NCBI GenBank assembly: GCA_002771215.1
Contig: PCRM01000034.1
Span: 1-36,356 of the forward strand
Length of the DNA stretch: 36,356 nucleotides
Direction of reading: 5' to 3'
DNA from: Candidatus Nealsonbacteria bacterium CG23_combo_of_CG06-09_8_20_14_all_40_13
GTDB lineage: Bacteria; Patescibacteriota; UBA1384; UBA12157_A; GCA-002773005
Shown here: piece after piece, positions 13,470 through 31,866 of the stretch
Numbering within the stretch: the first letter of the stretch is position 1
Layout: each line of letters opens with the position of its first letter
The notes under the pieces: model-generated
Seen by the model: the letters and a program-made list of their open reading frames with translations, nothing else
Databases searched by the model: none
Told to the model about the DNA's origin: nothing
Program-made: the position numbers and the translations under genes

Positions 13470-13583
13470 AATTGACAATTTTTGGACAATGTGGGCTATA
13501 GCCAAGAAGCGAGCCTGTAGCCCCGAAGGGGCACAGCTGATTCCGTACCAAAGCAAATCTTGTCGCAGATAAAACTCGAAGGA

Positions 13584-13684
13584 GCGAGCCGCTAGCCCAT
13601 AAAGTTGGCTAGCAACCGCACAGGAAGACCGAGCAGCAGCGAGGGCGCTCCTGTAAAGGGGACAACTTTTGGGCGCGGCGAGCG
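13584..13684. repeat. Structured repeat family 1, copy A
   Basis: GCGAGCC...GGCGAGCG ends; stems GCCGC/GCGGC, AAAGTTG/CAACTTT, ACAGGA/TCCTGT; aligns with 27298-27389. Confidence 0.7.
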
Positions 13685-15094: not shown

Positions 15095-15198
15095 TTTTAC
15101 CTCCATAGTTTTTAACTTTTACTTTTTAATTTTGACCCATTCGACTTCATCCAGGGTCAATCCTGAGTTTATCGAAGGATTGAGTTTAGCGAAGCGCT

Positions 15199-15245
15199 TG
15201 GTGCCGGGGGCGGGAGTCGAACCCACACGAGGTTTTACCCTCATT
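15199..15245 (-). pseudogene. 3' fragment of a tRNA-Leu (variable arm, T arm, acceptor, CCA)
   Basis: Minus strand ...GAGGGTAAAACCTCGTGTGGGTTCGACTCCCGCCCCCGGCACCA; near-copy of the 3' half of tRNA-Leu(TAA) at 16343-16431; no 5' half. Confidence 0.8.
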
Positions 15246-16091: not shown

Positions 16092-16342
16092 TAGTTCGAC
16101 ATCGCTCACTATTGACACTGACCAAAGTCGAAGTGTCAAGTATAAATTGGGTAAATTCAAGAAAAAAAACAGAAATTCCCAAAAATTTCTGCAACAAATG
16201 ATATGAAAAAATTTTCTTTTACTAATTCAAACCGCCAATTGATGCTTCGACTCAACTCAGCATCAATCCTGAGCTTGCCGAATGGATTGATTTTTTGTAG
16301 TTTTTACTTTTTAACTTTTACTTTTTACTTTAGCGAAGCGCT

Positions 16343-16431
16343 TGGTGCCGGGGGTGGGATTCGAACCCACACGGAGTTTTACCTCCAACGGGTTTTAAGC
16401 CCGTATCGTCTACCAATTCCGACACCCCGGC
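16343..16431 (-). tRNA. tRNA-Leu(TAA)
   Basis: GCCGGGG...ACGGG-CTTAAAA-CCCGT, class II variable arm, GTGGGTTCGAATCCCAC, CCCCGGC-A-CCA. Confidence 0.95.
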
Positions 16432-17911: not shown

Positions 17912-17921
17912 GAAAAATGAG

Positions 17922-18030
17922 AATAAACTACTCCGCAGCAAGCTGCGGAGTATCCCCAAAGGGGCGAGTTTGTTTTTAAATAGGCTTCATCCTCGCAGCA
18001 AGCTACAAGGTATTCAGCCTCTTAAAAATA
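17922..18030 (+). repeat. AAACTACTC double-hairpin repeat, copy 1
   Basis: AATAAACTACTCCGCAGC-AA-GCTGCGGAGTATCC...AAATAGGCTTCATCCTCGCAGCAAGCTACAAGGTATTCAGCCTCTTAAAAATAA. Confidence 0.7.
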
Positions 18031-21316: not shown

Positions 21317-21643
21317 TGCCTAGGGTCAGAATCGAACTGACGACACCATGATTTTCCAATTAATCGTTTCTTCTCTCAATATAAACTTAGTTTACACCGA
21401 GTAAAACGAGGTGGACTATCTCATCTCCGACGTAACGTCGGAGTTGGGCGCTAATATAAGATTATTGTTGGGACTCACTTATTAGTCTCTACACCTTCTC
21501 TGATACCACAGCCCATCAGAGCTTGGCTCGGGATTGTTCGACATTTTGTCGAAGTTTCCCCGAATTCACCCAATTTTCATCCCCGCCTTGCGACGGGACG
21601 GACCGAAAACCAGTCATGTGCTCTACCACTGAGCTACCTAGGC
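21317..21643 (-). tRNA. tRNA-Phe(GAA) interrupted by a group I intron
   Basis: Exon 1 21612-21643 GCCTAGGTAGCTCAGTGGTAGAGCACATGACT; exon 2 21317-21356 GAAAATCATGGTGTCGTCAGTTCGATTCTGACCCTAGGCA. Spliced anticodon arm CATGA-CTGAAAA-TCATG. CCA is not fully encoded (CCT). Confidence 0.93.
21357..21611 (-). ncRNA. Self-splicing group I intron (255 nt) in tRNA-Phe, between U33 and G34
   Basis: Core motifs on minus strand: AATCCCGAGCCAAGC (21521-21535), GGTGTAGAGACTAAT (21481-21495), GAGATAGTCC (21413-21422); P1 GACU:GGUC with U.G at the splice site; P10 GAAAA:UUUUC; terminal G. Confidence 0.93.
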
Positions 21644-21646
21644 ATA

Positions 21647-22327
21647 TTATATTTTTAAAGATAAACCCTTAATCCAACCTTTTAATTTTCTCATCGATTC
21701 TACTTTTTTTATATATATATGTAATGTTCCATATAGTAAAGTGTTATGTTTTCTTTTTTTCTTACTTGATTTACTTATAACAATCTGTGGTCTATAAAAT
21801 TGTTGTTTTTTAGCTTTAAGAATTTTTGCCCAAAATTTTTGCGTTTTTTCTTTTTCAATATTTGGATGTAAATGAATTCGGAATTTGAAAACAGAATTAT
21901 CTATTTTACAAATTTCTATGAAGAACCTCATAATTAACTGAATTATTTTAGGATCTGAATTGCTAAATCTTACAGCACTTTTTTCTTTTTTACCACCTTC
22001 TGCCCAAAATAATCCTAAACCTATCCAAAATAATCTCTCCTTATTTAATTTCGGAATTTCTTTCGCATAACTATTAATTAATTTATTATGTTCAACTTTT
22101 AAAATTTGCGATCTTTTTTTGTTAAAATTCGTAATATTTCTTGCCCAAATAATTTTGGTTTTTAAAATGTTCCGTTTTTTAATAACTCTTGATAAAGGAT
22201 AATTTTTGAACCAAGTTGACAATGTACTCTTCGGAATATTTAAAAGTGTATTTATTTGATTATAACTTTTTCCTTCTTTCCTTAAAAACCAAGCTTGTTT
22301 TCTTTTATTCGAACTGACAATACTCAT
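21647..22327 (-). CDS. HTH + LAGLIDADG-like homing endonuclease candidate
   Basis: 226 aa; N-terminal HTH 'KSYNQINTLLNIPKSTLSTWFK'; 'IGLGLFWAEGGKKEKSAVRFSNSDPKIIQLIMRFF' resembles the LAGLIDADG motif region; very AT-rich. Confidence 0.6.
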   Translation of the reverse strand: MSIVSSNKRKQAWFLRKEGKSYNQINTLLNIPKSTLSTWFKNYPLSRVIKKRNILKTKIIWARNITNFNKKRSQILKVEHNKLINSYAKEIPKLNKERLFWIGLGLFWAEGGKKEKSAVRFSNSDPKIIQLIMRFFIEICKIDNSVFKFRIHLHPNIEKEKTQKFWAKILKAKKQQFYRPQIVISKSSKKKRKHNTLLYGTLHIYIKKVESMRKLKGWIKGLSLKI

Positions 22328-26789: not shown

Positions 26790-26809
26790 ATCGACCTCCT
26801 AAAATAATT

Positions 26810-26914
26810 ATAAACTACTCTGCGGCTTGCCGCAGAGTATCCTACGAAAAGTTTTTTTCCAAATAGGCCTTCGTCCCTGTGGCAAGCCACAGGGTATTCG
26901 GCCTCTTGAAAATA
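26810..26914 (+). repeat. AAACTACTC double-hairpin repeat, copy 2
   Basis: TAAACTACTCTGCGGC-TT-GCCGCAGAGTATCC...AAATAGGCCTTCGTCCCTGTGGC-AA-GCCACAGGGTATTCGGCCTCTTGAAAATAA. Confidence 0.75.
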
Positions 26915-27297: not shown

Positions 27298-27389
27298 GCG
27301 AGCCGCTAGACAATAAAATTTATTTGCAAACGCCACAGGAAGGCCTTGACCGCTCCTGTAGAGCGAGAAATTTTTTGGCGCGGCGAGCG
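27298..27389. repeat. Structured repeat family 1, copy B
   Basis: GCGAGCCGCTAG...GGCGCGGCGAGCG; stems GCCGC/GCGGC, AAAATTT/AAATTTT, ACAGGA/TCCTGT. Confidence 0.7.
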
Positions 27390-30118: not shown

Positions 30119-30259
30119 AAATTACTTTTTCACCTTCTTTTCTTTAATATAACAAATATCTTTTATAATATTTCGACAAAAAGTTAGCGAGGCGCTAGCC
30201 AAAATTCTAATTTAAGTGAGGTTTTTGGCTAAGAAAAGTGTCTCGGAGCATGTTAAAAA

Positions 30260-30423
30260 GCGAGCCTGCAGCCGAAGCAAACCGTGTCGCAGACTAGCCC
30301 AGGATTATCTTTTAGGATGGAGAATAGCTTTTAATGGCTAGCCGAGACACGAGCAACACCCGACGAAAACCAATTTTTTTCATACATTACGGCGATTGCG
30401 TGTTTGCGTGGCGCAGGCGAGCG
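30260..30423. repeat. Structured repeat family 1, divergent copy C
   Basis: GCGAGCCTGCAGCC...GGCGCAGGCGAGCG; outer stem GCCTGC/GCAGGC; a wider helix GTGTCTCGG (30238-30246)/CCGAGACAC (30342-30350). Confidence 0.55.
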
Positions 30424-30441: not shown

Positions 30442-31866
30442 TTACTTTTTCACTCTCTTTTCTTTAATATACCACTGCCAGATATTTAAGTACCGCCCGG
30501 CGGCAGACATTCTGGGACCCTCAATAATGCCCTTAACTTTTGCGGAAACAGTCCAATTGTAAGTTTCTTTATTTAAAACTATTGTCGGGGCTTCCTGATC
30601 TAAAATCTTTTGCACCTTGGCGTAGTCGGCAGCTCTAACATTTTCATCCAGTGTAGTTCTGGCTTCTTCAAGCATTTTATCAACAACCGGCATTGAAAAA
30701 GAGGATAAATTCATTCCCTGCTCGGAAATCTGCGAAGAGTGGTAAAGCGGATATAAATCCGGGTCAGAACCCAAATTAACTTCGTAAAGCAAAATGTCAA
30801 AATTTCTGGTGGGGATATCAACCTTTTGCAAAATTAAATTGTCTTTACTGATAATATTTAATTTAATCCGTAATTTAGCCAAGTCCTCTTTTGATTTTTC
30901 TGCCTGCGCCACATTGGCATCTTTATCGTTAGTTAAAAGTGTTAATTCAATATCTTTGTCCAATGGCGTATTTTGGGCAATGGCTTGGCGGATTGTCCGG
31001 TCCTGCAGAATCTCTCTTTTTAAGTTGAAAAAAAGCATTTGAGAGTAGGGAAGAGGAAATTGATAAGTTTTATAATTTCTTTTGCTATCTACATCAGCCG
31101 CGGTTGTCAGCCGGCCCAGCTTAAAATCGATATTTAAATCGGCGTCAGTGGGATAAAATTTGAGGGTAACTTTGTTAAGGTAGGGCTTACCCTGATAGAA
31201 ATTATCGTTGCGCTTCAAAGTTATTTCTGTCTTGGTTGATTTTTCAATTTGAAAGGGTCCGTAGGGCAAAATCAGCTGCGTGGTATAGGACAAAAACGGT
31301 GCGTAAGGTTGCGCAAGGGTTAATTGGATATTTTGGCCGTCTATTTTGGTTTCCACCCCTTGCCACTTGGCCTTGTCAATGGCATTTTTGATTTCTTCCA
31401 GATTGAAGCCCTGACGAATTTTGAAGGTATAAACTTTGCCATCCGGCGAAATTTGCCAGCTTTCAGCAATAGCGGGAATGATTTTGCCATCGGTTGAGTA
31501 AGCGGTCAAGCCGCAGTTGGTTAAATTTTTGGCCTCCTCCATCGCCAAAGTCGGATTTTTAATGACAATTCCTTCTATAAAAGTGCCGCCGGCTACTGGC
31601 ACATATTGTTTGGGAATTTTGTAAAAATCCCAAATCAACTTTCCGTTGGCCGCCAATATTACTAATAATAAAATAGCGATAATATATTTTTCCAAAACGC
31701 AAAACGCCTGCCAAGCGAATTTAAATTTCCGCAACGGCGTCCAATTTCCCAAACTGCGAAGGACAAATTTGAAGGGTTTGATGAGATAGGAGAATAACTT
31801 TTTGATGATTTGAAAAACGTTGCTTAAGGTTAACTTAAGTTTTAAAATGAGTCCTCCTAAACCCAA
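30442..31866 (-). CDS. Peptide ABC transporter-type substrate-binding protein (SBP family 5), TM-anchored
   Basis: 474 aa; 'GTFIEGIVIKNPTLAMEEAKNLTNCGLTAYSTDGKIIPAIAESWQISPDGKVYTFKIRQGF'. Confidence 0.88.
   Translation of the reverse strand: MGLGGLILKLKLTLSNVFQIIKKLFSYLIKPFKFVLRSLGNWTPLRKFKFAWQAFCVLEKYIIAILLLVILAANGKLIWDFYKIPKQYVPVAGGTFIEGIVIKNPTLAMEEAKNLTNCGLTAYSTDGKIIPAIAESWQISPDGKVYTFKIRQGFNLEEIKNAIDKAKWQGVETKIDGQNIQLTLAQPYAPFLSYTTQLILPYGPFQIEKSTKTEITLKRNDNFYQGKPYLNKVTLKFYPTDADLNIDFKLGRLTTAADVDSKRNYKTYQFPLPYSQMLFFNLKREILQDRTIRQAIAQNTPLDKDIELTLLTNDKDANVAQAEKSKEDLAKLRIKLNIISKDNLILQKVDIPTRNFDILLYEVNLGSDPDLYPLYHSSQISEQGMNLSSFSMPVVDKMLEEARTTLDENVRAADYAKVQKILDQEAPTIVLNKETYNWTVSAKVKGIIEGPRMSAAGRYLNIWQWYIKEKRVKK

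Follow-up and report, generated by a model that had tools for sequence, protein, structure and literature searches.

Hairpin repeats at the locus

The window, that is, the whole 36,356-nt stretch of DNA analysed here, corresponds to contig C11 in a genome of 654 kb and 46 contigs, which by its size and gene content is probably patescibacterial. It carries three repeats, A, B and C, which all start with GCGAGCC and finish with GGCGAGCG, and each of which lies close to a minus-strand stop codon (5, 41 and 19 nt, respectively, from the 3' end of the element to the stop). The elements and their parts are as follows.

13584..13684, plus strand: element A (family 1), matched by covariance model R1 at 93.6 bits and part of the eight-copy alignment
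13588..13592, plus strand: GCCGC, left arm of stem 1 of A; partner GCGGC at 13675-13679, with GA/GA mismatches outside
13601..13607, plus strand: AAAGTTG, stem 2 of A; partner CAACTTT at 13663-13669
13620..13654, plus strand: inner hairpin of A, ACAGGA..TCCTGT, the best conserved section of family 1
27298..27389, plus strand: element B (family 1), R1 match of 99.3 bits; inner hairpin 27335-27340 / 27354-27359
30260..30423, plus strand: element C, with GCGAGC arms as in A and B and an apparently decayed copy of the cross-phylum core
13507..13569, plus strand: left part of a C-type element, adjoining A; 14-nt identity with the C9 element and a 22-nt match with C
30187..30259, plus strand: orphan left part of a further GCGAGC-armed element, adjoining C; 15-nt identity with the C18 element

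The elements are non-coding with paired ends, and are about 94-104 nt (A/B type) or 164 nt (C) long. Their common termini, their position beside stop codons and their stems are as a sequence-only reading of this DNA had described them: stem 1 is GCCGC/GCGGC in A and B and GCCTGC/GCAGGC in C, and stem 2 is AAAGTTG/CAACTTT in A and AAAATTT/AAATTTT in B. The inner hairpin ACAGGA/TCCTGT is present in both A and B. A half motif reported near A does exist, but it starts one base off, at 13507, and represents the left portion of a C-type element. That reading had also grouped the three repeats as one family, and here we disagree, as A/B and C have different cores under common arms. The end word alone is within chance expectation (GCGAGCC occurs 5 times, 2.9 expected); the paired-end architecture gave 14 matches in 165 kb compared to 0-4 in shuffled controls.

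Family 1 and its paired changes

A aligns with B at E=6e-8 and with the copy on contig C45 at E=6e-39. Collection of copies genome-wide with a covariance model, an approach the same reading had put forward, yielded eight A/B-type copies in the window's genome (E 6e-23 to 1e-5), which are dispersed, intergenic and 70-92% alike. Nearly all of them fold as GC-GA-GCCGC-(TA)-GCC..stem..core, and the 3' side mirrors this order to close the structure. In the eight-copy alignment two-sided changes occur in 12 of 33 pairs, a level reached in none of 500 shuffles, so the compensatory changes noticed in the stems are genuine. Pairing was found in 93.9% of cells compared to 37-44% in slid structures, although this percentage leans to structure because R1 was made from six of these eight copies; the two-sided changes depend less on that derivation. 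In the copy on C37 the outer stem is rewritten (GTCACCAAAAG/CTTTTGGTGAC) and the core is unchanged. Wobble counts in family 1 (G-T 6 against A-C 5, with two columns set aside) are weak evidence for which strand folds. We also found nesting in both directions: a family-1 element lies within another GTGAG-armed hairpin (C10:1910-2045), and a core element lies within family-1 arms (C45:15579-15812).

Outside the window's genome, R1 found no family-1 match, either among 55 genomes of the class or among 383 of the phylum, with stricter filters in the large searches. Phage and plasmid records gave no match. The exact type-1 inner pattern was absent from GTDB r220 and IMG/VR, from which the window's own record was possibly excluded, and A and B had no match to the cross-phylum core covariance model up to E=10. 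On these searches the A/B core appears to be confined to the window's genome. A further palindromic pair in the window, at 17914-17955 and 26801-26842, has common flanks and compensatory differences (CTCCGCAGC/GCTGCGGAG and CTCTGCGGC/GCCGCAGAG).

Element C and a core found in other phyla

C is a separate element that has the arms of A and B and appears to carry a decayed copy of a core found in other phyla. Its match to covariance model R3 (30270-30412, 20.8 bits, E=0.004 in 168 kb) is weak alone, but membership is backed by a chain of relatives: the nearest is the C9 element (86% over 83 nt, 93% over 28 nt), which is in turn 87% identical over 53 nt to the C18 element. Intact versions of the core are present elsewhere in the window's genome.

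We searched GTDB genomes with a pattern made of motifs from the C18, C38 and C46 elements, and 114 stretches matched. Of these, 80 were listed: 71 core elements from Candidatus Aminicenantes, in at least 13 MAGs, four in one Actinomycetota MAG and five unrelated chance matches. The core elements have in common long blocks that were absent from the pattern, namely AAAACCGT, AGGC-GAGCGGGCA-GG and GAGCGA-GCC. Three unpaired blocks are kept across three phyla, GAGCGGGCA-GG, GAGCGA-GCC and CGCTGGG, the last of which was imposed by the search pattern whereas the other two were not. Within the window's phylum, 19 of 384 genomes contain the core according to model R2, with up to at least nine copies per genome (scoring was limited to nine candidates in each). 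An alignment of 48 core copies shows two-sided changes in 23 of 29 pairs and a G-U pair kept in 43 copies, and wobbles in the core family number 30 G-T against 16 A-C. None of 4227 Rfam models matched A/B, C or the core.

Arms and cores occur in different combinations: different cores sit under common arms within the window's genome, and different arms surround one core between genomes. Some elements occupy matching loci in different species, and there conservation of the core exceeds that of the flanking genes (92% against 78% for L131/L145, and 95% against 73-78% for L124/L162), which suggests a retained function. Comparison of L094 (1-330) with L138 (4890-5220) shows the core flipped in place between its arms, with 94% flanking identity. 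In three Aminicenantes loci (L104, L115 and L118) the variable hairpin of the element contains hairpins of the GGGGACAGTCCC type that recall RAYT repeats, and in another (L139) the right half of the element is, by eye, seemingly translated as the C-terminal end of an ORF.

Strand and placement

In the window's genome the GCGAGCC-first strand of all 14 elements coincides with the C-rich strand, and almost every element closely follows a stop codon; C-rich strand and gene direction are confounded there except at contig C34. A cleaner test is provided by genome G349, a single contig (C1) of 998 kb, in which 9 of 9 elements are on the C-rich strand while neighbouring gene directions are mixed. GC skew along this whole contig was negative in 15 of 15 sampled stretches, with no sign change. 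G043 (5/5) and the Actinomycetota MAG (4/4) bring the tally for the four genomes to 32 of 32 copies, all on the C-rich strand. Three genomes with weak skew (G004, G190 and G363) have no clear strand bias, and strands in Aminicenantes are mixed (34 versus 42, four Actinomycetota loci included). The Aminicenantes elements are mostly upstream of genes, the gene on the right being on the plus strand in 46 cases and the minus strand in 20, with 15 divergent and 3 convergent arrangements. Thus in one clean test, G349, element strand tracks replication-strand asymmetry and not gene direction. We considered the strand bias as proof of single-stranded DNA transposition and rejected it, because the bias in the window's genome is entangled with gene direction and no bias is seen in Aminicenantes.

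Evidence for mobility

Marks of movement come from the Aminicenantes MAG BS750m-G29, where the element is 400-413 bp long with ends GGTTCTCTTCCATTTTGTGTGGG..CCCACACAAAATGGAAGAGAACC and is flanked by near-identical 8-bp sequences (CTTAAAGT/CTTAAAGT, GATTTATT/GATTTATC, GGTTTATC/GATTTATC and ATCTTGTT/ATCTTATT). We tested the prediction of an ISL3 gene with the ends of the element. This MAG has one ISL3 transposase gene, and the sequence directly 3' of it is identical to the element end at 26 of 26 positions; the other end of the gene is off the contig. An ISL3 gene is present as well in JAOUKO, the second MAG with that end type, with no matching end seen nearby. Among seven non-CPR genomes the ISL3 gene is found only in these two and is absent from the five with other ends; it is also absent from the window's genome and four other element-bearing CPR genomes. 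An element-less site was found in L097, from a sister MAG, where L106 carries the element; their flanks are 95-97% identical, and a 14-nt direct repeat surrounds the element. The event at L106 was not simple, because the inserted 239 bp also include a second hairpin. Target-site duplications were not seen at the copies in the window's genome, where shared words measured 3.8 nt compared to 3.4 in mismatched pairs. The transposase search in that genome covered Y1 and ISL3 genes.

Interpretation

We think that A, B and C are probably, though far from certainly, non-autonomous, non-coding, MITE-like mobile hairpin elements. Each has outer inverted arms, of a kind that varies from genome to genome, and a structured core at the tip; a transposase encoded elsewhere would recognise the arms and move the element in trans, and the core would be a passenger of the moving element and be kept. 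The core itself might serve in protein binding or as an RNA or ssDNA structure. That A, B and C move in the same way is inferred from the Aminicenantes elements. A mobile hairpin would explain the copies, the nesting, the unoccupied site, the duplications and the transposon ends. Against it speak the missing duplications at the copies in the window's genome, the missing ISL3 gene in that genome and in four other CPR genomes with the element, the retention of some elements at matching loci and the complexity of the L106 insertion. Like the RPE of Rickettsia, NEMIS/Correia, RUP and ERIC (PMC2229807), these are non-coding, intergenic, dispersed repeats of ~100-170 bp whose terminal inverted repeats form one long hairpin. 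They differ in that the window copies have no target duplications or known transposase, several cores occur under one arm set, and one core occurs across phyla with different arms. The ISL3-family IS of BS750m-G29 and its MITE, the cross-phylum core between 26-nt ISL3-identical ends with 8-bp duplications, is a second relative, but the window's genome has different arms and no ISL3 gene.

A serious minority possibility is that these are old palindromic repeats in which template switching during replication preserves arm complementarity, with no selection on structure. Template switching is known to homogenise palindrome arms and invert spacers (PMC8604942, PMC8794818), so it could account for arm complementarity and the in-place inversion of the core between L094 and L138, and block changes of the expected kind are seen (e.g. 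CCCATAAAGTTG to CTTGAAAAGTTG, with loss of a bulge). It explains less well the unpaired core blocks kept across three phyla, the persistence of one-sided bulges and GA/GA mismatches, and the conserved G-U pair of the core. The sequence-only reading had taken the compensatory changes as a sign of selection for structure. These changes do go well beyond shuffles and slid controls and selection is plausible, but paired changes alone do not prove it, because template switching homogenises palindrome arms. We conclude that the stems probably stay paired through the combined effect of selection and template switching. The unpaired blocks kept across phyla, and a core that outdoes flanking genes in conservation at matching loci, argue for selection on the core as well.

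Three further explanations start from placement or fold. The elements might act as RNA, as a 3'-UTR stabiliser, processing site, terminator or small RNA gene, consistent with strong folding, a conserved core, the position of nearly all own-genome copies directly after stop codons and, after some copies, a T-run in the direction of the gene. We consider this rather unlikely, as the G349 genes point both ways with all elements on one strand, the Aminicenantes elements are mostly upstream of genes, the core can flip in place, and Rfam offers no match. The terminator scan flagged a short stem in C and none in A or B on the minus strand. The earlier suggestion of RNA derived from gene 3' ends is not supported, since placement tracks strand asymmetry in the clean test genome and most Aminicenantes elements are upstream of genes. 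REP/REPIN-type elements, moved on single-stranded DNA by a Y1 (RAYT/IS200) transposase, are also intergenic imperfect palindromes with strand-specific bulges (PMC3116915, PMC6006769). The imperfect hairpins here have one-sided bulges and a short direct GYGAG at both ends, the strand bias goes with replication asymmetry, and the window's genome has two Y1 genes. The linkage to Y1/RAYT that the sequence-only reading had raised was checked, and neither gene is flanked by an element. There is no co-occurrence either (Y1 in 8 of 19 element-bearing versus 166 of 365 other genomes, Fisher p=0.8), and G349, a single contig with at least nine copies, has no Y1 match. The bias to the C-rich strand is opposite to lagging-template insertion, if G-rich means leading, and the elements are longer and few in copies, with a GCGAG or GTGAG foot and no GTRG (GTAG/GTGG). 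This makes a Y1-driven element quite improbable. Least probable is a DNA site tied to replication, or a single-strand recombination site resembling attC, with its folded strand kept on the leading template. The 32 of 32 copies on the C-rich strand would fit, and integron attC bottom strands have the same leading-template placement (PMC11023631) and are likewise strand-specific imperfect hairpins of variable sequence. However, the copies adjoin core genes and not cassettes, no attC R boxes were seen by eye, Aminicenantes have no bias, and in the window's genome the bias is in large part inseparable from gene direction.

Returning to mobile hairpin elements, C appears, by sequence comparison, to hold a decayed form of the cross-phylum core. 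We offer as a tentative and less probable extension that this core has a function of its own as folded RNA or single-stranded DNA, and has survived in Patescibacteria, Aminicenantes and Actinomycetota by being carried on one unrelated set of transposon arms after another; it would then represent a new, modular class of mobile structured element. Most known bacterial palindromic repeats are restricted to one lineage, whereas here a single folded core is found under different outer arms in three or more phyla, stays in place at some matching loci and can invert between its arms. Its recurrence, partial retention and flipping make it possible to test whether it serves as cargo, as a structure to be recognised or as an active RNA. 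The results also urge caution, as compensatory changes in palindromic repeats can come from template switching. We found no description of these elements in the open-access literature, which is weak evidence of novelty.

Other features observed

A Group I intron match on the minus strand at 21388-21596 (RF00028, 41.4 bits, E=1.4e-7, below the gathering score of 50) apparently lies within a tRNA gene that ARAGORN does not report, and is adjoined by a 226-aa homing endonuclease-like ORF (21647-22327). A TTTAGCGAAGCGCTTGGTGCCGG repeat occurs at tRNA-like 3' ends at 15180-15239 and 16324-16383, of which ARAGORN calls only the second a tRNA. Near position 30505 of G000:C9 (L070) we noted a reverse transcriptase reading frame whose IPIGNLTSQ and CYCDDF motifs, identified by eye, resemble those found in diversity-generating retroelements.
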